Origin: Bacteroidaceae bacterium
GTDB lineage: Bacteria > Bacteroidota > Bacteroidia > Bacteroidales > Bacteroidaceae
DNA: 64,000 bases
Direction: 5' to 3'
NCBI GenBank assembly: GCA_017522785.1
Contig: JAFWYF010000001.1
Location: 186,001-250,000 of the forward strand
Part shown: piece by piece, positions 35,833 to 63,103 of the stretch
Layout: each line of letters starts with the position of its first letter
Numbering within the stretch: position 1 is the first letter of the stretch
The notes under the pieces: generated by a model
Database searches by the model: none
What the model was told of the DNA's origin: nothing
What the model saw: only the letters and a program-made list of their open reading frames with translations
Program-made: the position numbers and the translations under genes

Positions 35833-36762
35833 ATGTCGGAACAACGTTTTTATTATAACGATTTCAGCACCTATTTGCGCAAACGTTTTGGTTGCAAGGT
35901 GCAAAAAATCACTCTCGATGGTGGTTTTACTTGTCCTAATAGAGATGGCACTGTTGGTCGTGGAGGATGTACTTTCTGTAATAATCAAACATTCAATCCT
36001 GCATATTGCCACAGAGAAAAGCCAATTCGTGAGCAAATGAGCGAAGGTATAGCCTTTTTTGCTCATAAATATCCCGAGATGCGCTATCTGGCATATTTTC
36101 AGGCATATACAAATACCTACGATTCGTTGTCGGCATTACAACGTCGCTACGAAGAAGCACTCTCTGTTGATGGTTGCCTAGGGATTGTCATAGGCACTCG
36201 ACCCGATTGCATGCCCGGTGATTTGCTCGATTATTTACAACGTCTATCGGAACAAACATTTGTTCTTGTGGAGTATGGTGTTGAAAGCACATGCGATGCT
36301 ACGCTGTCGCGCATAAATAGAGGTCATGATTATGCTGTTGCAGTAGATGCTGTAACACGAACTGCCGAACGAAATATCCCAGTTGGGGTACACATGATTT
36401 TGGGATTGCCGGGCGAGACTCGTCAAGATATTATGAAACAGGCTTCTGTTTTGTCGAAACTGCCTATTACCACTCTTAAACTGCATCAGTTACAGTTGAT
36501 ACGAGGAACACGTATGGCTCGGGAATTTGAAGAAGTGCCGTCCGATTTTCATCTTTTTACTCTCGATGGCTACATAGAGACAGTTGTCGATTATGTGGAA
36601 CGTTTACGCCCCGACATTGTTTTGGAACGCTTTGCATCGCAATCGCCAAAAGAACTGTTGATTGCACCCGATTGGGGCATAAAGAACTACGAACTTGTTG
36701 AGATGGTGAAGCGTCGCATGCGTGAGCGTGATACTTGGCAAGGACGTCTGTTTGTTGGCTAA
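35833..36762 (+). CDS. Radical SAM protein, TIGR01212 (YhcC) family
   Basis: 309-residue radical SAM protein. The Fe-S cysteines are C34, C46 and C49 in CPNRDGTVGRGGCTFC, with the longer C-x11-C-x2-C spacing of the TIGR01212 family instead of CxxxCxxC. TIM-barrel motifs follow: YLAYFQAYTNTY, IGTRPDCMP, VEYGVEST, GVHMILGLPGET and LKLHQLQLIRGT. The C-terminal ELVEMVKRRM region is typical. Members are widely conserved, and E. coli YhcC lies near gltB. No substrate is firmly established, although RNA modification has been proposed for the group. It is a single plus-strand gene convergent with the carbonic anhydrase gene (6-bp gap). Confidence 0.92.
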   Translation: MSEQRFYYNDFSTYLRKRFGCKVQKITLDGGFTCPNRDGTVGRGGCTFCNNQTFNPAYCHREKPIREQMSEGIAFFAHKYPEMRYLAYFQAYTNTYDSLSALQRRYEEALSVDGCLGIVIGTRPDCMPGDLLDYLQRLSEQTFVLVEYGVESTCDATLSRINRGHDYAVAVDAVTRTAERNIPVGVHMILGLPGETRQDIMKQASVLSKLPITTLKLHQLQLIRGTRMAREFEEVPSDFHLFTLDGYIETVVDYVERLRPDIVLERFASQSPKELLIAPDWGIKNYELVEMVKRRMRERDTWQGRLFVG

Positions 36763-36768
36763 TGTTTT

Positions 36769-37281
36769 CTATTTATACCACGATGCATACATAACGTAAT
36801 CGTTGGCTATGCGCTCTACAATCTCTTTTTGTTGTTCGGGGCTCACCTCCTTTATCTTTTTTGCAGGTACTCCGGCATAAATAAAACCGCTTTCGACGCG
36901 CATGCCCGATGTTACAAGAGCATTTGCCGCAACAATTGCGCCACTCTCCACAACGGCATTGTCAAGAATTGTTGCACCCATGCCTATTAAGCAATTGTCC
37001 TCAATTGTGGCACCATGTATTGTTGCATTGTGTCCAATAGAAACATTGTTTCCTATAAATGTCTTGGAACGTTGGTAAAGGGTGTGTACTACAGCTCCAT
37101 CCTGAATGTTCACTTTGTTGCCAATGGTAATGCTGTTTACATCGCCTCGCAGTACAGTGCCAAACCAAATAGAACAGTCGTTGCCCATTGTAACATCTCC
37201 TATTATGGCTGCAGTCTCTGCCAAATAGCAATTCTCTCCAATTTTGGGCATAAAGCCTCGTACCTCTTTTATTATAGCCAT
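36769..37281 (-). CDS. Gamma carbonic anhydrase family protein
   Basis: 170-residue left-handed beta-helix protein. Hexapeptide repeats run from FMPKIGENCYLAETAAIIG through DCSIWFGTVLRGDVNSITIG. The metal-binding histidines are in GAVVHTL, SIGHNATIHG. A C-terminal helix (EQQKEIVERIANDYVMYASWY) ends the protein. ATG at 37281 (MAIIKEVRGF) is chosen because it gives the family's normal length. The frame upstream to 37341 starts with GTG and would cover the -7 box TACCTTTG (37318-37325). Activity may be CO2 hydration or a related acyl transfer; the family includes both. Confidence 0.9.
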   Translation of the reverse strand: MAIIKEVRGFMPKIGENCYLAETAAIIGDVTMGNDCSIWFGTVLRGDVNSITIGNKVNIQDGAVVHTLYQRSKTFIGNNVSIGHNATIHGATIEDNCLIGMGATILDNAVVESGAIVAANALVTSGMRVESGFIYAGVPAKKIKEVSPEQQKEIVERIANDYVMYASWYK

Positions 37282-37317
37282 GCTCTTTTTGAATGATTTT
37301 ATATTTCGCTTACGTGG

Positions 37318-37325
37318 CAAAGGTA
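37318..37325 (-). promoter_or_regulatory. -7 box of the gamma carbonic anhydrase gene
   Basis: TACCTTTG on the minus strand, 37 bp before the ATG at 37281. A partial -33 element (TTGG) lies about 20 bp further upstream, inside the end of the next gene. Confidence 0.55.
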
Positions 37326-37337
37326 ATGAATAATTTA

Positions 37338-37583
37338 TCACTCACCAACACCTTTTAGGGTTTGACGTAGAAGCATGTCGATATTGTCGTCGCTATTTTC
37401 TCTCTCCTTGTTCAGTTTTACAAGAAAATCGGCCATAGTCTTTAGTACCTGATTAATAGTCGAAGGGTCTTCGCAGTTGTGTGTGAGTTTCTCTAATCGT
37501 CTTATCAAACGTCTAAAGAGGGTCAGTGTCTCCTTCTGTACATCATCGATGGTAATTTTTTCTCTCTTTTTCTCTGTTGTCAT
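37338..37583 (-). CDS. Small helical protein of unknown function
   Basis: 81-residue charged, probably all-helical cytosolic protein (MTTEKKREKITIDDVQKETL, LFRRLIRRLEKLTHNC, DDNIDMLLRQTLKGVGE). I do not recognise the family; it does not match exonuclease VII small subunit. It is transcribed divergently from the phage-like genes, with 143 bp between the starts, and ends 56 bp before the carbonic anhydrase start. Its position at the left edge of the phage-like block makes it a candidate regulator or packaging accessory of that block, but it could equally be a host gene. A possible -7 box TAACTTCG (minus strand) lies at 37604-37611. Confidence 0.6.
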   Translation of the reverse strand: MTTEKKREKITIDDVQKETLTLFRRLIRRLEKLTHNCEDPSTINQVLKTMADFLVKLNKERENSDDNIDMLLRQTLKGVGE

Positions 37584-37726
37584 TTCAATAATCTTTTAGA
37601 ATACGAAGTTACAGCTACAAACCCTTTTGTAAGTTGTTGTATTGATACTTTTAAGGAAAATAGTTATTATAATTCTGCAACCCCTTTCCATAGTTTACTG
37701 CTTTCTTTTGCACAAAAATTCAAACT

Positions 37727-38317
37727 ATGGTTAAAACTAATTTATTAAACGGATTGACCGGTGCTTTAGGGCTTTATTCCGGTGTAAAAGGGCTGTTCGA
37801 TTCAGCCTCGCTGGCACGTAAACAGAAACGTCTGCTGGCAGATGCAAAGGCCGAAGAGTCGGCATGGTTCAAACGTAATTATTACGGTAACTATCTCGAA
37901 AACAGCATGGCTAAGGCTGCGCTTAAGCGTGTGGAAAATACACTTCATAGACAAAATGCTCAGAACAGGGCTTATGCTCGAGTGAATGGTGCCACACCTG
38001 AACTAACGCGTGCTCGCAATGCACAAGGGTTGCGCTCAATGGAAAATCTAATGACAAATATGGCTACTCAGAGCGATACCCGACGTGAAAATATCTACGC
38101 ACAGCACATGCAAAACAAAAATGCCTTCCGAAACAGAGAACTAGCGATGTTACAAGACGAAGAACAACGTGCCGGGAACAGCATGCTTGGTGGTGCACAG
38201 TTGGTGAAAAATGCTCTCCTAGGTATGAATTGGGGTAAACAAAAGAGTGATAACATAAAGGATGAAGGAGTTTATGGAGAGACGAAAGAACAATATCCTG
38301 TTTGGGACTGGGGATAA
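37727..38317 (+). CDS. Phage DNA-ejection-like helical protein
   Basis: 196-residue protein. A short Gly/Ala-rich hydrophobic start (TGALGLYSGVKGLFDSASLA) is followed by long charged helices: KQKRLLADAKAEESAWFKRN, YYGNYLENSMAKAALKRV, TLHRQNAQNRAYARVNGATP. The combination of hydrophobic N-terminal segment, Ala/Gln/Arg-rich helices and the GATPELTRARNAQ segment resembles internal virion or DNA-ejection proteins of Bacteroidetes podovirus-like prophages (T7 gp14-like role). This is pattern recognition without alignment. It is the first gene of the cluster, and its end overlaps the next gene by about 44-56 bp in another frame. Confidence 0.6.
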   Translation: MVKTNLLNGLTGALGLYSGVKGLFDSASLARKQKRLLADAKAEESAWFKRNYYGNYLENSMAKAALKRVENTLHRQNAQNRAYARVNGATPELTRARNAQGLRSMENLMTNMATQSDTRRENIYAQHMQNKNAFRNRELAMLQDEEQRAGNSMLGGAQLVKNALLGMNWGKQKSDNIKDEGVYGETKEQYPVWDWG

Positions 38318-38819
38318 TTCGATGTTGCCCTATGATGACGAGTATGATGGGCATAAGGAGCATGTAGATAATATAAAAAAGGATTTGTATATGCTCAACC
38401 GTGCACGAAACAGAGCTTTGGTAAGCGATTTTGCATCGGGACTAGTGAATTTAATTGCTCGTCGAAAGGGTAGTCGTGTCGTTCTGCCAACAGATTCTAC
38501 CGAGAAATATAACAAGGTTTTGTTGCAGTTGAACGATAAACTGCACATGGCACAAAGAGATTATGATGGAGAAATAGCACGCAAAAAGGTCTTTACACAG
38601 CAACCAAAGCAAACTGCTGTAGCAACCCCCAATCAAAACAGTGCTACCAACAACTCACTGCCAAAGGTAACGCTCTTGAAACCAATCTCGTCGTTCTCGA
38701 TAAGACAAGCAAACAGCAAAAATAGTATCAATAACAGTATGAAAGTAGTAGAGCAGTGGAGAAAAGAAAAAATGATACTGCCTAATTGGTATTCTAATAA
38801 GTCAAACAAAAAGAGATAA
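38274..38819 (+). CDS. Small basic protein of the phage-like cluster
   Basis: 181-residue basic, low-complexity protein (Asn/Gln/Ser/Lys-rich second half) with no recognised domain. The start is uncertain. ATG at 38262 gives 185 residues; ATG at 38274, used here, is preceded by AAGGAG; ATG at 38322 would avoid overlap with the previous gene. A central segment RARNRALVSDFASGLVNLIA may form an amphipathic helix. It ends 18 bp before the giant gene. Position between two ejection-like genes suggests a virion-associated or scaffolding role, inferred from context only. Confidence 0.55.
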   Translation: MERRKNNILFGTGDNSMLPYDDEYDGHKEHVDNIKKDLYMLNRARNRALVSDFASGLVNLIARRKGSRVVLPTDSTEKYNKVLLQLNDKLHMAQRDYDGEIARKKVFTQQPKQTAVATPNQNSATNNSLPKVTLLKPISSFSIRQANSKNSINNSMKVVEQWRKEKMILPNWYSNKSNKKR

Positions 38820-38837
38820 TCTAAAAATTTTACAAAT

Positions 38838-41800
38838 ATGTTACAGAATTACGAAAATTCGAAAAAGAGAAAAGAGAAACAGAATAGCTTTTCTTTTGCA
38901 AATGAACAAGATGCATTTGAAGCGGATAGCTTAATGGAGCAACCCGATTTTTCCGATATACAGCGGAATATGCAAAACGCTTCGGCATCCATGCGACAGT
39001 CGCAACAATATATCGATGCTCTTGGTAATAAACCGCAGCGTGAAGAGTATTATCGTAGCCAAATGCGCGATTATCTTGTTCCACAAGATACCGAGATGCG
39101 TCGTCGCCGACAGTTTGTTATGTCGAAAAATGCAATAGATGATGCTCTTGACGATTATTACAACAACGAGGTCTATCCCGAATTTGAGGCACAACGCAAG
39201 GCGGCTTACGACAAAGGACGTAAGGATTTTGAAAGTTTTGCTCGTGTTCCGGGAGCAAATCCACATGCGGCATTGGCAGGGATGCAAAGAAATAGCGACC
39301 CCGAGAAGGTTATAAATAGCACTATGTCTTCTCTTAATGATAAAGGATTGGACGATATCTCGGGTGCGTATGCCCGTTATGCGGGACTCGACCCCGAAAC
39401 CTATCGCGAGACGGTGCTTAAACCAAATATTTATAACCGAATGGTTAATAAGTATGTCGATGATGCAACTCCACGTAACTCTGCGGAATATATATATCGT
39501 GGAGTAGTCGGTAATTCTCTAATAGGAAAGGCCGGCGCATTAGGACAAAAACTGTACACAGGGAAAAACAGTGAACAGTTTATTGATGATGAGGGTATGG
39601 CCAATTATGGGGCAAACCGCATGGAGAATTTTGCGGTAGGTGTAGGCTCGTTAATGCTCGATGCGTCCATGTTTCATGGTATTGGTGCCGGTGCAGGAAA
39701 AGTAACAAAAGGTGCTACCTCGTTGGCACAAAAGCATCTTGCCGGAAAACTTCTTGCAAAAGGCGCAGAAAACGGTATTACTGTTGCCGGAGCCGATGCT
39801 ATGGCTAAGAAGATGATAACCAACAGCCTGAAAGCAAAAATTGCACAAAGTTCATTAACGCAAGGTTTGACATTGGGCGCTTATGATGCGGCCAATAGCG
39901 TTGCCGATGATATTCTGCACGACCAATCTGTAAACGTTGGCAAAGCTGCGGGTTCCTTTGCTAAAGGATTTGGTACGGGTGTTGCTCTTGGTGCGGTAGG
40001 TACTCCGTTGCGTGAGCAGGCGCGTGGCCTCACGGGGCTGAAAAAAGTCGCTGCGTCAGCAGGTGTTCTCAGTGCAGAATCGGCTGTATTTACAGCTGCA
40101 ACAGAGGCGGAAAAATTGAGTATGGGAGTTGAGATTGAACCAATAGACCTTATTCACGATTTTGGAGAGAGCATGGCAACTTTGGCATCTATGCGCATGT
40201 TTAATTGGCGACCGGTACGTGGAAAAAGTGCATTGAACTCAGTGGGACGTTTGAAAGAGGAGTTACGATTTACGCCTACAGAGAAAGAGGAAATAGCCGA
40301 TGCCGGTGTAGAACCCGAAACATTTATCTCTAAATTGGAAAAGGCATTGAATGTGTCGTCGAAAGGACTGTCAGTCGAAGGCATTGATGTAAAGGATGAT
40401 TATATAAAATTGATGTCCGACCCGGAACTATCGGCTTCGGCACGTTCAAAATTGTTGTACATAGTAAATGGAAAGGTAACATCGACACCTCCTGTTGCTG
40501 TAGATTACACTCTCGAAGAGTTACCCGACGGCAAGGCAAGAGCAACACTTTACGATATTACAGGTGGAAAAATAGAAACAATGGAACTACAAAATAGAAG
40601 CTCCATTGAGGGTTTCTTGCTGATGAAAGCAGGTGCATTGCGTCGTAACCGACTTGCAACGTACGAAGAAATCTTACAACGTAACTACAATACACAGGAT
40701 TTCTTCAGACAGGCCGGTATATATGCAAAAGAGAAGGGTATAAGTAGCGATGCTGTTTCCGATGCCATGTATAAAAAGGCAAAGAAAGAGCCGTTGAGCA
40801 ACGAGGAAAACAATATGCTCGACGAAATTTTGCAACGCACCGGATATGGCGAAAGTGAATTGGGCAAAATGTTGCTGGGAATGCGTCGTTATGTGGAAAA
40901 TGAGTATAATCTTTTCCCCGGTACTTTGGCTGCAAATAGCGATAAACCAACATATCGTATCTCTAAAAATATAAATGCCGCTCTTGAAAAATATGAGAGT
41001 TTGATGCGAGAACAAATAGATGTTTTAAACGGTAAATTACCACGCGAAAAATCATTTGTTTCCTATCTTAGTGAAACTGACAAAATGTACTCCGATATGA
41101 GCAATAGCGACATATTGGATATGGAGCGCAATAACTATGAACGTGGAATTACAGATAGCAATTCGGCAATACTTGAATATGATGAAGTTCCTGATATCAC
41201 CGAGGGACTTGGCATTAAAAAGGACGATTATGGCTTGCATCCACAAAAATGGAACAAACGATATAAATGGAACGTCTATGGCTATAGAAACACTCCCGAA
41301 AGAATGGAGGACTTTGCAAAACTAGCCAAGAAAGTCGCTGCAGAATATGGTATGGATGTCGAATTTATTCGTGACGAAAGGCAAATTCCATATAAAGGTA
41401 ATCCGGAATATAAGCATATGATTGTAGCACGTGGATGGTATAGTTCAAAAGATAATAAAGTTGTACTAAACCTCCCTAATATGCTCGACTCTCACGAGGT
41501 AGAAAGAACTATTTTCCACGAGGTGGTAGGACACTATGGCTTTGGTCGTGTTTTTGGAGTCTATTATGAACGTTTTCTCGAAGATGTCTATCGTAGAGCT
41601 ACCCCCGAACTTAAACGAAATATACACGAAAAATCGAGGTCGTATGGAAATTCGTTGCATACTCTTGTCGATGAATATATTGCCGACCTTGCAGAATATC
41701 CGCCAAGTAACCGTGAACAACGTTCGGTGTTACGTCGTTTCAAAGATTTTGTGAAAAATATGCTTCGTAAAAATGAAACTTATCGTTACAATAGTTCCAT

Positions 41801-43316
41801 TTCTTATAATGAATTAAAAGAGTTGATTGATTTGCATAATAATGCAATGAAAAAGAACAGAAGCTCCGAATGGGAACGTAAAAACGTTTTTAAGGATTTC
41901 AGAGATTCTTATTATGCTAATGAGGATTATACCGATAGCGATAAATATTACGAGAATGAGGTAAAACTCTACGATAACGACCCAACAATGAGCTATGTTG
42001 CAGAACCCTTCCGTGCACGACGCAAATTGCATGTCGATATACGCAAACAGTGGAATGCGGCTCATGGCAAGAATGCAACAGATAACAGTGTTACAAATGG
42101 CAACAGCTATCGTTTTGTGGGTGTAAAAGGCTTGGAGAATTTAGAGAGAACTATTGGCCGAAAATCGGAAATGCATGCAAAACTCGACAGAGCAAAAGAG
42201 ATGTATGCAAAAAATCAGTCGCCTCGATTGATAAAGGCTGTTACAGGCTGGGAAATGGGTGCCGATGGTGAGTGGCGCATGGAAATAGACGACAACATAG
42301 CGTTGAATGATTATATTGGAATATCTCTTAAGGCTTCCGATGACATACTCTATCCTACATACAAACAGATAATGCGTAAATCGCCCGAAGAACGTTCTGT
42401 GCTCGATAACGAAATGATGGAGGCGATATATGAAAGGGTAACTCCAGTCGATAAGTTTGCACGACTCGATTATATAGTCAATGATAATAGGTTTTTTACT
42501 CTCTATCCCGAATTACGCGACGTTCCGGTGAAATTTGAGAATATGGGTGGTGAATTGTGCCGATATGATACCAGAAATGGAGTTCTCTATTTGGATAAAC
42601 GTGCATTGCATGACCCTGCTCTGAGTGATGAACTGCTTGTTCCCATGCAGCAGATGGTACAAGAGTATGAAAATTTCTCGCGTGGCAGAGATGCAAAAGG
42701 GTATGCGCTTGATAGTGAGATTGCCGATTATGAAGATGCCTGTTACATTGCAGATGTGCTTACAAAAAATGAAAACAATCCCGATTTCGACAAGCGTTTT
42801 ATGAAAGCACGACGCGACTTTCGTGCCAATTTTGGAATGCCATATTCGCAATTTCGAAAAATCTTTCCCAGTGTCAATGAGTATGTCAATTATTTACGTA
42901 CCGGAAAAACCAGAGCTACTATTGGCGATGTGGAACTTCGTAATGTAAGACGTCGTAAGGATACTCCAATGTATACCCGTTCTGTTATGACTGCCGAGAG
43001 TACCGAAGATTATCCTCGTAGTGGTCAGGTTCGTAATGCTCGCCCACGTACTGTAAAGAATTATTTGCAAGGTCCGCTCGATATAATAAAGGAGAGAATG
43101 TTCTTCCTGAACGAACAGGACAATGCTATTGGCCGTTTGCGCGGAGAAATAATGAACAGGGAAATTCCTGTCGACGAAGTGATGTCAAATGATATGTTCG
43201 ATGGCATGAATCGAGATATTTATCGCAACGATATAAAAAATCTGCGCGATAGAATATCTAAAAGTAGAGAGAACCTCGATGCAATATTGCGTATGCGAAG
43301 AAAAAGATTGAACTAA
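38838..43316 (+). CDS. Giant phage-type protein with zincin metallopeptidase motif
   Basis: 1492-residue protein, by far the largest in the window. The N-terminal ~230 residues are charged and helical. Residues about 260-450 are Gly/Ala-rich and membrane-active looking (NFAVGVGSLMLDAS, GIGAGAGKVTKGATSLAQK, AAGSFAKGFGTGVALGAVG), as in internal virion proteins that form a trans-envelope channel. A zincin motif HEVVGHYG lies at residues 894-901 (His894, Glu895, His898), with a candidate third ligand Glu946 in VDEYIADLAE. This HExxGH...EEYxA pattern is known from large polyvalent phage and conjugative proteins. The C-terminal ~500 residues are charged and unassigned. One continuous frame suggests selection. 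No signal peptide is seen. Confidence 0.7.
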   Translation: MLQNYENSKKRKEKQNSFSFANEQDAFEADSLMEQPDFSDIQRNMQNASASMRQSQQYIDALGNKPQREEYYRSQMRDYLVPQDTEMRRRRQFVMSKNAIDDALDDYYNNEVYPEFEAQRKAAYDKGRKDFESFARVPGANPHAALAGMQRNSDPEKVINSTMSSLNDKGLDDISGAYARYAGLDPETYRETVLKPNIYNRMVNKYVDDATPRNSAEYIYRGVVGNSLIGKAGALGQKLYTGKNSEQFIDDEGMANYGANRMENFAVGVGSLMLDASMFHGIGAGAGKVTKGATSLAQKHLAGKLLAKGAENGITVAGADAMAKKMITNSLKAKIAQSSLTQGLTLGAYDAANSVADDILHDQSVNVGKAAGSFAKGFGTGVALGAVGTPLREQARGLTGLKKVAASAGVLSAESAVFTAATEAEKLSMGVEIEPIDLIHDFGESMATLASMRMFNWRPVRGKSALNSVGRLKEELRFTPTEKEEIADAGVEPETFISKLEKALNVSSKGLSVEGIDVKDDYIKLMSDPELSASARSKLLYIVNGKVTSTPPVAVDYTLEELPDGKARATLYDITGGKIETMELQNRSSIEGFLLMKAGALRRNRLATYEEILQRNYNTQDFFRQAGIYAKEKGISSDAVSDAMYKKAKKEPLSNEENNMLDEILQRTGYGESELGKMLLGMRRYVENEYNLFPGTLAANSDKPTYRISKNINAALEKYESLMREQIDVLNGKLPREKSFVSYLSETDKMYSDMSNSDILDMERNNYERGITDSNSAILEYDEVPDITEGLGIKKDDYGLHPQKWNKRYKWNVYGYRNTPERMEDFAKLAKKVAAEYGMDVEFIRDERQIPYKGNPEYKHMIVARGWYSSKDNKVVLNLPNMLDSHEVERTIFHEVVGHYGFGRVFGVYYERFLEDVYRRATPELKRNIHEKSRSYGNSLHTLVDEYIADLAEYPPSNREQRSVLRRFKDFVKNMLRKNETYRYNSSISYNELKELIDLHNNAMKKNRSSEWERKNVFKDFRDSYYANEDYTDSDKYYENEVKLYDNDPTMSYVAEPFRARRKLHVDIRKQWNAAHGKNATDNSVTNGNSYRFVGVKGLENLERTIGRKSEMHAKLDRAKEMYAKNQSPRLIKAVTGWEMGADGEWRMEIDDNIALNDYIGISLKASDDILYPTYKQIMRKSPEERSVLDNEMMEAIYERVTPVDKFARLDYIVNDNRFFTLYPELRDVPVKFENMGGELCRYDTRNGVLYLDKRALHDPALSDELLVPMQQMVQEYENFSRGRDAKGYALDSEIADYEDACYIADVLTKNENNPDFDKRFMKARRDFRANFGMPYSQFRKIFPSVNEYVNYLRTGKTRATIGDVELRNVRRRKDTPMYTRSVMTAESTEDYPRSGQVRNARPRTVKNYLQGPLDIIKERMFFLNEQDNAIGRLRGEIMNREIPVDEVMSNDMFDGMNRDIYRNDIKNLRDRISKSRENLDAILRMRRKRLN

Positions 43317-43356
43317 TATGCTCGAACAAGCATGTGTTAAGTAAATTTGTAATGTG

Positions 43357-45357
43357 ATGAATAGATTTTTAAATAGAAAAGTGAAGGCAACCTCTCGAAA
43401 GAATATAGAGCAACCTATAGTAGAGGAGAGTGGCATGGCTGTCGATTTTTTGAACGAGTGTGCTGCTTGCTGGAACGCCCTTGATGAGGCTCGTCGCAAA
43501 TTGCGACGAAGCCTCATGTATAGTTACGGCGATCAGTGGGGCGATTATGTGCTCGACCCCGACACAAACAACTATATAACAGAAGGTGAACTAATAAAAA
43601 AGAACGGCAAGGTGCCATTGAAAAATAATATGATAGCACCTATTCTAAACAATGTCGACGGACAGTTGCGTCAAAATCTTATGCGTCCTGTGTGCATAGC
43701 ACGCGACCAAAGTGAAAGCAAGATAGGCGAAATGATGTCTATTGCTATTGAATATGTTCATGATATAAACGAATTGGAAGAGGTCGATTCTGCCTCTATG
43801 CGTATGCTCCTGAATGGAGGTATGACAGCTCAACGCATAGAATTTGGTGTAAATCCTTCGCGTAACAAACAAGATGTATGGGTGTACGAGGTTAATCCTT
43901 CGCGACTCTTTTTCAATACCAATCTCGAGGATGTGCGCATGTGGGATGTAACCTGCATAGGAGAATTATTTGATATCCCTCTCGATGATTTGTTGGCTCA
44001 TTTCGGTCGTACACCACATGAAAAGGAGAAACTAAAACTCATCTATGGCGGTGCTACAAACTACTCCTATGTGGCAAGCAGGGGTGTGCAAGGCGATGAG
44101 TCGCGCCTGCTCTCTTTTTACTCTCCTTCGCGTAACGATCTTTGCAGGGTCATCTTGGGGTGGCGTTTGGAGTCGCGCGATGCCTACTATTGGAACGATA
44201 CCATGCATGGCACATGGGGCTATTTGCCCTATAACGAAGAGAGTCGCAAAGGGCTTGATGCCGAAAACGAGAAACGTCGCGAAGATGCAAAAAAAGAAGG
44301 TGTAGAGGATGACGATGTTCTAACAATAGAGTACACCTATTCTACTGAACGATATTGGTACTATCGTTATATGTCGCCTTATGGGCATGTGCTAAAAGAG
44401 GGGCGTAGTCCATACTGGCATGGCGAGCATAATTATGTGTTGCATCTCTATCCTCTTGTGCAGGGTAAATTGGGTAATTTTGTGGAGCAGTTTATAGACC
44501 AACAACGTGCTATAAACCGAACTGCCACACTCATAGATTTTATTCGTGGAACTTCGTCAAAAGGTGTTTTGGTCGTTGATGATGAGGCTTTTGAAAGCAT
44601 GACTCGCGAAGAGGTCGTCGATGAATATGTACGTTATAACGGAGTGCTTTTTGTGAAACTGAAGCCGGGTCAAAGCATTGATGGAGTAGTACGACAATAC
44701 AATAGTGGTGCGTCGGTAGCCGGAGATTTTGAATTGCTTAGTCTGCAACTGCGTTTGATAAATGAAATCTCAGGTGTAAATTCGGCTATGCAAGGACAAG
44801 CACCAAAAGCCGGAACTCCTGCGAGTTTGTATGCTCAACAGGCACACAACTCCTCTTTGAACCTAAAAGGGCTATTCGATAATTTCCGTACTTTTCGTCG
44901 TCGTCGCGATAACAAACTGATGAAAACCATACAGCAGTTTTATACCGAAAATCGCTATATAGATATAGCAGGTAACGACTACAGCGAAGAGGCAAAGTGG
45001 TATAATCCCGAAAAGGTGCAAAATGCCGAAATAGATTTAACTATCTCCGAAGGGTATAATACTCCTGCTTATCAAATGCTTGCAAACGATTTTCTTATGG
45101 AACTATTCAGAGCGCAAGCGTTGGATGTGAAAACATTGCTCGAAAATACATCCTATCCATTTGCCGATAAGATATTAGAAGCAATTAAACGTAACGAAGA
45201 ACAGATGGCGCAAGGAGCACCAATGGGTGGAATACCTCCCGAAGTCATGCAACAGTTACAGATAGGTCAGGGCTCACCTAATGAACAATCGCCACCTACC
45301 GATGTTGATACACAAATGCAAGAACAATATTCAGAGACTAATTTACCACAAGTGTGA
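43357..45357 (+). CDS. Phage portal-like protein
   Basis: 666-residue protein resembling portal proteins of short-tailed phages (P22/crAss-like style). Typical elements: an N-terminal helical segment with YSYGDQWGDY, VPLKNNMIAPILNNVDGQLR, a wing/stem region with VNPSRLFFNTNLEDVRMWD, LHLYPLVQGKLGNFVEQFID, QRAINRTATLIDFI, ISGVNSAMQGQAPKAGTPAS. A Gln/Pro/Gly-rich C-terminal tail (EEQMAQGAPMGGIPPEVMQQ) is common in portals. A portal forms the dodecameric DNA channel at one capsid vertex. ATG at 43357 is used; a GTG one codon earlier is possible. No terminase or capsid gene is adjacent. The call is by pattern and needs profile confirmation. Confidence 0.72.
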   Translation: MNRFLNRKVKATSRKNIEQPIVEESGMAVDFLNECAACWNALDEARRKLRRSLMYSYGDQWGDYVLDPDTNNYITEGELIKKNGKVPLKNNMIAPILNNVDGQLRQNLMRPVCIARDQSESKIGEMMSIAIEYVHDINELEEVDSASMRMLLNGGMTAQRIEFGVNPSRNKQDVWVYEVNPSRLFFNTNLEDVRMWDVTCIGELFDIPLDDLLAHFGRTPHEKEKLKLIYGGATNYSYVASRGVQGDESRLLSFYSPSRNDLCRVILGWRLESRDAYYWNDTMHGTWGYLPYNEESRKGLDAENEKRREDAKKEGVEDDDVLTIEYTYSTERYWYYRYMSPYGHVLKEGRSPYWHGEHNYVLHLYPLVQGKLGNFVEQFIDQQRAINRTATLIDFIRGTSSKGVLVVDDEAFESMTREEVVDEYVRYNGVLFVKLKPGQSIDGVVRQYNSGASVAGDFELLSLQLRLINEISGVNSAMQGQAPKAGTPASLYAQQAHNSSLNLKGLFDNFRTFRRRRDNKLMKTIQQFYTENRYIDIAGNDYSEEAKWYNPEKVQNAEIDLTISEGYNTPAYQMLANDFLMELFRAQALDVKTLLENTSYPFADKILEAIKRNEEQMAQGAPMGGIPPEVMQQLQIGQGSPNEQSPPTDVDTQMQEQYSETNLPQV

Positions 45358-45399
45358 TAATTTTTTAAAGAAACAAAACATCTTGTTAAATAAAAATAT

Positions 45400-45407
45400 T
45401 ATCTTCG
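45400..45407 (+). promoter_or_regulatory. -7 box of the small lipoprotein gene
   Basis: TATCTTCG on the plus strand, 60 bp before the ATG at 45468. It shows that the lipoprotein has its own promoter and is not simply the end of the phage-like operon. Confidence 0.5.
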
Positions 45408-45467
45408 CACTCGATATATGAATTTATGATAATATAGATGTTTAACCCTAAATACAAATATTATTTT

Positions 45468-45890
45468 ATGAAGAGAATATTTACATTTACAGTGATGATT
45501 TTGATGCTTGTTGCAACAATCTCCACAACTTCGTGTAGTACAGCAAAATCCGTGAATAGTGCATTTGCAAAGAATGGTTATATCATGGAAATGCTTTCTC
45601 CTGCTCAGCAGGCACAATTGGCACCTGTTTTGTCGGCCTTCCCCGCTTTCAATCAGGATGCTATGGGCTATTTGCAAACTGCCGGTGCTACAACATTTGT
45701 ATATGCTGTAGATGAGGCAACATGGAACTCCTATTGCAATACACTCATGAGAAATGGTTTCTCAAATATGGGAATAGGCCTTGTGAAAGCCGACAAAACC
45801 AATAATGTAACTTACAATGTTAGTGGTAAATTCACTACTATTTACAAACAGACATATCTTCTGGTAACATACACACACGCAGGTTTCTAA
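45468..45890 (+). CDS. Small lipoprotein of unknown function
   Basis: 140-residue lipoprotein. The signal peptide ends in a lipobox (TISTTSC) with acylated Cys23, followed by STAKSVNSAFAKNG. The mature part has YIMEMLSPAQQAQLAPVL, FVYAVDEATWNSYCNTLM and a C-terminal YLLVTYTHAGF. I do not recognise a family. ATG at 45468 is chosen over one ten codons upstream because the signal peptide starts here. It lies between the phage-like cluster and ligA with its own -7 box and terminator, so it is probably a host envelope gene rather than a phage gene. Confidence 0.75.
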   Translation: MKRIFTFTVMILMLVATISTTSCSTAKSVNSAFAKNGYIMEMLSPAQQAQLAPVLSAFPAFNQDAMGYLQTAGATTFVYAVDEATWNSYCNTLMRNGFSNMGIGLVKADKTNNVTYNVSGKFTTIYKQTYLLVTYTHAGF

Positions 45891-45919
45891 TAGTATAAGA
45901 ACAGGAGTTGTAATACTTT

Positions 45920-45960
45920 ATCAGAGAGCGTCATTTTTTTCTATTGACGCTCTCTGATTT
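45920..45960 (+). terminator. Terminator after the small lipoprotein gene
   Basis: A 14-bp perfect stem ATCAGAGAGCGTCA (45920-45933) / TGACGCTCTCTGAT (45945-45958) with T residues following, 30 bp after the stop. Confidence 0.85.
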
Positions 45961-46019
45961 AATTTATATTTTGTAAATTCGCGTTTGAAAATTAAGAAAT
46001 TCTTAAATACGTGGTTTAA

Positions 46020-48062
<2,043 letters not shown>

Positions 48063-62708: not shown

Positions 62709-62709
62709 G

Positions 62710-63103
62710 TGGAGCTAGAGGGAGTCGAACCCTCGTCCAAACGAGGAAACCATATGCTTTCTACACGCTTAGTCATCGGTAAAGTTTTCGAGTATAGGCA
62801 AGACCGCGACAACCAACCTATACCTTATCCTCTAAAATTTCACCGTAACATCGAGGCCTGTTACGATTAGTCCCGATTTGCCTGCACCACCATTTCGGAT
62901 TGCTTCGGAACAACTGCGTCCGGGTGATGTCTCGTTCCAACACCTAGTATCGGAATAAAGCTAATCTACTGTACTTCGATTAAGCAGCGAGAGCATAGTT
63001 ATTTTCGCCAGATAATTGTTGACGGCTCAGATTATAGTGCAAACCAACGAGGCACTGCGTGCTTACATACCTTTTCTACCCGCTGTCAAATCCAGATAGC
63101 CCC
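62710..63103 (-). ncRNA. ssrA: Transfer-messenger RNA (tmRNA)
   Basis: 394-nt one-piece tmRNA that rescues stalled ribosomes. The 5' end GGGGCTATCTGGATTTGACA (from 63103) pairs with the 3' acceptor strand TAGCTCC (62711-62717), and the T arm reads GAGGGTTCGACTCCCTC. The tag frame at 62980-63009 reads GGC GAA AAT AAC TAT GCT CTC GCT GCT TAA. The tag is therefore GENNYALAA (with the tRNA alanine added first), ending in the LAA degron for ClpXP-type proteases. Pseudoknot-like G/C segments lie between the tag and the 3' end. CCA is not encoded. A consensus promoter lies 42 bp upstream. Confidence 0.97.

Follow-up and report, generated by a model that had tools for sequence, protein, structure and literature searches.

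Gene transfer agents (GTAs) have evolved several times and tend to be encoded at multiple loci, which can lie up to hundreds of kb apart and of which some comprise only one or two genes; the string "bacteroid" does not occur in the accessible text of the review describing this (PMC11841831). RcGTA of Rhodobacter capsulatus is encoded by 17 genes in one cluster and seven genes in four other loci (PMC6821227). From the gut, FpGTA I and II of Faecalibacterium, with two operons and parts resembling those of short-tailed phages, have been described on the basis of particles and proteomics, and for Bacteroides/Bacteroidales the accessible portion of that paper reports lateral transduction and not GTAs (PMC12946183). 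No GTA described for Bacteroidales was found in a literature search whose coverage excluded preprints and most subscription papers. The present analysis concerns a stretch of 64,000 nucleotides from a Bacteroidaceae bacterium (assembly GCA_017522785.1, contig JAFWYF010000001.1, positions 186,001 to 250,000; hereafter the window), which contains a block of four phage-like genes (cluster 1, window positions 37727-45357). Sequence comparisons place this block among at least three unlinked loci of a domesticated podovirus-type system for head formation and DNA packaging, most likely a GTA.

The podovirus-derived gene set appears to have been tamed long ago and to be inherited and switched together, and it probably gives rise to particles carrying DNA between cells. 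Features in common with RcGTA are the phage origin of the head and packaging genes, their vertical transmission, purifying selection and a distribution over several loci. Unlike in RcGTA, even the portal and the capsid/terminase genes are unlinked; moreover, the Bacteroidales set has a P22-type portal, an SU10-like capsid, a CI-like repressor and a late-promoter element, belongs to another phylum and is known from genes alone. FpGTA also belongs to another phylum and has its portal, terminase and capsid genes in one operon (PMC12946183). Multi-locus GTAs as such are known, and the scattered set of Bacteroidales is probably a further one.

The portal block and its unlinked capsid and terminase

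The preliminary description of the window, whose observation is confirmed and whose interpretation is partly supported, had reported four consecutive plus-strand genes ending with a portal-like gene, and the open reading frames are indeed located there. The last of them (43354-45357, 667 aa) matches Pfam P22_portal (PF16510) over nearly its full length (4.5e-43) and the PHROG phrog_156, annotated as portal protein (3.4e-63), and its profile (A1) finds three portal chains of solved structure. The likeness to phage P22 extends over nearly the whole portal, to which the comparison with P22 was confined. Directly upstream lies the gene of a large polyvalent protein (38838-43316, 1492 aa) with an LPD23 domain (4.6e-10) and a match to phrog_14770 (7.6e-15), a group of unknown function; it is presumed to be an internal or ejected virion protein. 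The block begins with two small genes, p196 (37727-38317, 196 aa) and p185 (38262-38819, 185 aa), and the start of the latter is uncertain because the two frames overlap by 56 nt. As neither p196 nor p185 matches any family in Pfam or PHROGs, the earlier assignment of channel and injection genes stands for the portal, while "ejection" was a label given by position only. Relatives of p185 occur in only some genomes (32-40% identity).

The same description regarded the block as an orphan lacking capsid and terminase and recommended a search of the remaining genome for both. That search revealed both genes on another contig (C10) of the assembly, where positions 219198-230939 form a head and packaging cluster (cluster 2). 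The large terminase TerL (C10:219225-221210) was found with a terminase query from a related prophage (L062) of the genome G016; it matches phrog_2 (1.1e-21) and its profile matches T4 gp17, while the Terminase_6N profile (PF03237) gave no match in the source genome. TerL, p162, p170 and p138 are encoded on the minus strand, with p138 in the position that the small terminase occupies in phages. The plus strand encodes a scaffold-like protein, the major capsid protein (MCP), p155, p219, p93, a holin-like protein, p143, p964 and p138b. The capsid gene, 3.4 kb from the terminase, reaches 20.9 bits with SU10_MCP (PF17236), below the cut-off of 24.1; its identity is given by homology to phage capsids and by a solved major capsid that is matched by the capsid profile A3 (1.8e-16). 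The scaffold-like protein is named by homology and position, and the holin-like protein by a match to Phage_holin_4_1 (1.2e-3) that lies below the cut-off. Thus, proteins for phage-derived heads and for packaging (portal, TerL, capsid, scaffold-like) are all encoded in this genome.

Cluster 1 lies between housekeeping genes, as had been noticed before, with a hexapeptide-repeat protein (carbonic-anhydrase-like by eye) on one side and ligA on the other. Cluster 2 is flanked by a beta-eliminating lyase and a protein reading by eye as RelA/SpoT. These assemblies are drafts, and different contigs alone prove nothing, so that an ordinary prophage broken across contigs would have to be considered. 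However, housekeeping genes flank both clusters within their contigs, the same neighbours recur in relatives, and in a genome of a second lineage (G260, see below) the terminase is located 953 kb from the portal and capsid genes on one contig. An assembly artefact is thereby extremely improbable. Also in agreement with the preliminary description, no direct repeats of at least 16 nt were found in the region 36700-46100, and a full set of phage genes beside the block, as expected for an ordinary prophage, was not seen in 30 loci of the genus. The G+C content of cluster 1 is not distinct from the rest of the window.

A few further observations concern the surroundings of the clusters. A small gene between portal and ligA (window 45438-45890), lipoprotein-like by eye, adjoins the portal in many relatives (42-66%) and may be a gene of the host or of the device. 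A tmRNA gene (window 62709-63103, tag GENNYALAA) is situated 17 kb downstream of cluster 1, with no link seen. In the relative G001, contig C28 carries a second polyvalent frame (L034, 127-5271; 1714 aa; 26-27% identity to the polyvalent protein of the window) upstream of DUF1573-like and RelA/SpoT-like genes, which adjoin cluster 2 in the source genome. The location of this frame hints that clusters 1 and 2 were once near each other.

A common promoter element and a repressor

The element TTATAATTCTGCAACC, a 16-mer, precedes p196 (37667-37682, plus strand) and, in identical form, the scaffold gene of the capsid cluster on C10. It is followed by a TTTG (37707-37710, plus strand) that belongs to a -7-type box of Bacteroidota and is spaced 29 nt from the initial C of CAACC. 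Exact copies of TTATAATTCTGCAACC are confined to these two sites in the whole source genome, one in the window and one at C10:222755, and relatives carry their own version of the element at both cluster promoters. CAAC(C/T) stands before TTTG in all 29 cluster-2 and in 24 of 29 cluster-1 upstream regions of the genus, with a spacing of exactly 29 nt in 29/29 and 22/29 promoters, respectively. The two promoters also covary: across 23 genomes their best shared 18-mer scored 16.13 of 18 within the same genome compared with 14.99 between genomes (20,000 permutations, p = 5e-5), this 18-mer being the element in 16 genomes and other, mostly A+T-rich sequence in seven. With one mismatch, a degenerate form of the element yielded 11 sites in the source genome (reversed control: 0), and among these the promoters of clusters 1 and 2 alone are exact. 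In eight genomes 57 near-matches were obtained (reversed control: 2), of which several, according to the stretches read around some of them, fall inside genes and look fortuitous.

When element and spacing were required together, 250 kb comprising the window and the fetched stretches contained eight sites. Four of them belong to the source genome, namely those of clusters 1 and 2, of a lone gene on contig C7 and of a divergent region, likewise on C7, between a small gene and a CI/LexA-like repressor with a Peptidase_S24 domain (PF00717, 2.2e-9; phrog_4, 4.7e-18). The repressor locus with both genes lies at ~134.3-135.7 kb. Within the fetched loci this repressor is present in 20 genomes of the genus, often adjoining cluster 2. 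A dyad, TAGCCA-N4-TGGCTA with up to two mismatches, occurs in 19/19 repressor intergenic regions and 21/29 cluster-2 regions (shuffled sequences: 0.10 and 0.25) and in none of the 29 cluster-1 regions. The shared promoter element suggests that both clusters and the repressor locus form one regulon. Since the late element is found with identical spacing before the scaffold gene of the phages L178, L180 and L182, this control region came with the phage.

The lone gene on C7 (266 aa; L469, 4147-4947; ~94,646-95,446 on C7) represents a candidate fourth locus. By eye and by a motif it resembles the end of a tail fibre, which neither Pfam nor phage records nor solved structures confirmed; PHROGs gave a value of 0.11 and IMG/VR three weak matches. 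In relatives, too, single genes are preceded by a late-type element that has the 29-nt spacing, namely in L465 (4038-5129, G023:C52), L462 (G011:C56), L463 (G004:C46) and L460 (G031:C76), with products including a protein of 363 aa (G023), a DUF6973 protein of 168 aa and one of 81 aa. Such genes might add cargo, lysis or effector functions to this regulon.

By analogy to other S24 repressors, repression might be relieved via self-cleavage upon DNA damage, after which the clusters would be transcribed together. Proheads would then assemble and be filled by the terminase with host DNA through the portal, and the particles, released by the holin-like protein and further lysis genes, would take this DNA to kin. 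No integrase or replication genes were noticed among the reading frames of the three loci or of their flanks, which were inspected by eye and by partial family scans, a result confined to these regions of the genome. Being dispersed, and with no gene of this kind seen nearby, the set is presumably unable to act in its own favour.

Inheritance, selection and relation to phages

The components of the system co-occur throughout the genus. The portal is present in 34 of 37 genomes, with pairs being 70-99% identical. Genus-type TerL is found in 42 of 44 genomes (any match: 43, the additional one being the prophage of G016 which served as the query and is therefore not counted), and genus-type capsid likewise in 42 of 44 (any match: 43, including G016, whose copies are only 38% and 26% identical). 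The completeness of G006, which lacks TerL and capsid, is 63%, and that of G016, an assembly of ~380 contigs, is 86%. Downstream of the portal, ligA follows in 19 of 30 other loci of the genus, 18 times closely and once at a distance of 9 kb, and the gene order of cluster 2 is kept in the genus loci read. Neither portal nor terminase was present in three sampled genomes from other genera of the same family code. Pairwise distances correlate with those of host genes (portal-ligA r = 0.74, n = 20; TerL-ligA r = 0.87, n = 16; MCP-50812 gene r = 0.93, n = 13) to a similar degree as those of housekeeping genes among each other (r = 0.77-0.84; ligA-dapA r = 0.77, n = 18), and third-position GC tracks the host gene (r = 0.71-0.93; portal r = 0.93, n = 18). 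Portal, TerL and capsid hence evolve like housekeeping genes, a vertical type of inheritance.

The conserved core is under purifying selection. Median dN/dS amounts to 0.054 for the portal (4 pairs), 0.061 for TerL (3 pairs) and 0.040 for MCP (11 pairs), next to 0.047 for ligA (3 pairs) and 0.042 for dapA (10 pairs). The earlier supposition of selection keeping the long frames open was right. Selection on accessory genes is weaker, with medians of 0.157 for the polyvalent protein (3 pairs), 0.10 for p964 (2 pairs) and 0.25 for p155 (8 pairs). The TerL motifs Walker A, Walker B-like and DVGG are intact in 32/32 sequences and HDDR in 31/32. The absence of integrase and replication genes beside the loci, the fast divergence of accessory proteins and occasional stops or split frames could be expected of neutral remnants of an old prophage that was split by rearrangement and is now decaying. 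Yet relaxed selection and sporadic distribution were not found; genus-wide presence, core dN/dS values like that of ligA and the promoter covariation make such decay very unlikely, and they contradict the recent remnant which had been among the initial guesses. The domesticated delivery device, another of these guesses, is what the evidence favours.

The closest known relatives of the set are podovirus-type phages and prophages of Bacteroides (BS-TP4, BKO1-TP3, BF1-TP2, the Bacteroides timonensis prophage L130 and the IMG/VR contigs L178-L185). Portal, terminase, p138, scaffold, capsid, p155 and p219 have homologues common to these phages, and the nearest also share the late promoter. Their genomes, in contrast, are contiguous, and portal and terminase are adjacent and convergent. 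Among 50,697 phages the portal was found in only three records (36-37% identity). In IMG/VR the best match reaches 61% for the portal (best 80 of 251 relatives) and 63% for TerL (15/15), compared with at least 70-71% for both proteins within the genus. In terminase trees the genus forms one clade beside the Bacteroides phages and a true prophage of the genome G009. A large polyvalent protein directly before the portal is also the arrangement of the free phage BS-TP4, so that the gene order of cluster 1, at first deemed unusual, is normal for the source phages; the suspected phage origin was right. The phage version of this protein is often of much greater length, with 5391 aa in BS-TP4 and 2930 aa in the prophage stretch of G009. 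Portal and TerL are separated by at most 4.7 kb in 60/60 viral loci containing both, and by less than 1 kb in 44 of them, whereas none of the 34 fetched stretches around genus TerL genes includes a portal, the stretches differing in length and the viral ones being limited to flanks of 10 kb. The set of the genus has been split exactly at the portal-TerL junction, with the portal now being followed by ligA and TerL by the lyase.

Related true prophages exist elsewhere in two genomes of the genus (G009 contig C6 and G016 contig C128). The one on C6 of G009 (~25-62 kb; L134/L059, L096), which carries the scattered set as well, encodes a capsid with 71%, a terminase with 59-64% and a portal with 58% identity and has a very long polyvalent gene.

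A phage or satellite which persists in several unconnected parts of the chromosome, or depends on a helper phage for its mobilisation, might be suggested by the retained phage-type repressor and late promoter and by the presence of the same promoter in the closest phages. But the host-like inheritance, the lack of a close IMG/VR contig among the matches listed and the missing repeats around cluster 1 render this highly improbable, and a temperate phage would have a contiguous genome, instead of unlinked portal and terminase genes flanked by housekeeping genes. Somewhat different is the idea that the head and packaging genes were domesticated for another purpose, such as interference with incoming phages through a capsid, portal or terminase acting as a decoy, or the lysis or killing of related cells. 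Phage parts can interfere with phage assembly, the true prophages of G009 and G016 would provide such a device with a target, and promoters of the same type precede small genes such as the 266-aa gene and, in G023, that of 363 aa. A decoy, however, would need one part only, and the retention of the whole chain of TerL, portal, capsid and scaffold with intact motifs and joint promoters makes another purpose rather unlikely.

The reading of this set of genes as a GTA is probable. Several observations weigh against it. The promoter element was not found in five of 29 cluster-1 promoters and its spacing differs in two, and ligA is not beside the portal in 11 of 30 loci, which have other neighbours or a contig end. 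Endolysin, tail or receptor-binding parts and a small terminase were not recognised with confidence at the loci, and no solved structure was matched by p964. The dN/dS medians stem from 2-11 close pairs per gene, and scaffold, p155, p964 and the polyvalent protein diverge quickly. Stops occur in the draft genomes, one each in TerL of G018 and MCP of G022, the portal of G011 is in two pieces and the scaffold of G005 is short. Finally, the lower carbon content reported for GTAs was seen for portal and TerL and is reversed for MCP, a mixed signal from a comparison that ignores relatedness.

A second, more scattered lineage and its implications

Related genes were also found in other Bacteroidales. 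An even sample of 247 genomes comprised 21 with portal relatives, among them all 20 that have terminase relatives. In 18 of these 20 the nearest portal-terminase pair lies on different contigs (10, partly due to draft assembly) or more than 11 kb apart (8, of which G055 looks phage-like). All nine genomes of the genus g22 have portal, terminase and capsid, distributed over three places. One holds the portal by itself, another TerL next to a polyvalent gene and a relative of p196, and the third scaffold-capsid-p219, which adjoins one conserved gene in 8/8 loci read. These places, too, appear to have a promoter in common. Six g22 genomes contain 138 TATCGCA sites, 17 of them with TTTG at exactly +33, and 16 of these 17 precede scaffold, portal or p196, given that start codons were partly assumed. 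The combination occurs at all three places in five genomes and only before the scaffold in G057. Terminase motifs are intact in 24/24 further sequences, and portals with stops were found in G261 and G181. In the family code f26 (L331/L332 of G260, L333/L334 of G076) a shortened portal of 459-485 aa and a capsid of 414-432 aa are located side by side.

In the terminase tree 24 sequences of this second lineage, from seven family codes, form one clade without viral sequences (SH-aLRT 95). After addition of 16 more viral sequences the group holds with a support of 67, and the viral contig L350 branches from its base. One common domestication of the two lineages, modelled by joining these terminases with those of the source genus, was rejected (AU test, p = 8.0e-9). 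It appears slightly more likely than not that related podoviruses were domesticated in Bacteroidales on two or more occasions, their head, portal and packaging genes becoming dispersed over the chromosome as co-regulated GTAs. One such event would have taken place in the ancestor of the ruminant-gut genus of the source genome and another, earlier, in the lineage of seven other family codes, in which the genes for portal, terminase and capsid may each stand singly between housekeeping genes and still share one promoter code.

GTAs have been proven in few lineages, and Bacteroidales are major members of gut communities. Scattered genes escape cluster-based detection, and the shared promoter code turns this scattering into an advantage, as it identifies all parts of the device in each genome and helps to find more. 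If related phages were indeed domesticated twice, the reasons why cells keep GTAs could be studied comparatively, and with cultured relatives from the second lineage, such as Barnesiella sp. An55 (L164), the question becomes testable at the bench. If true, this reading would mean a hidden, order-wide route of gene transfer in Bacteroidales, which prophage finders seeking contiguous clusters would miss.

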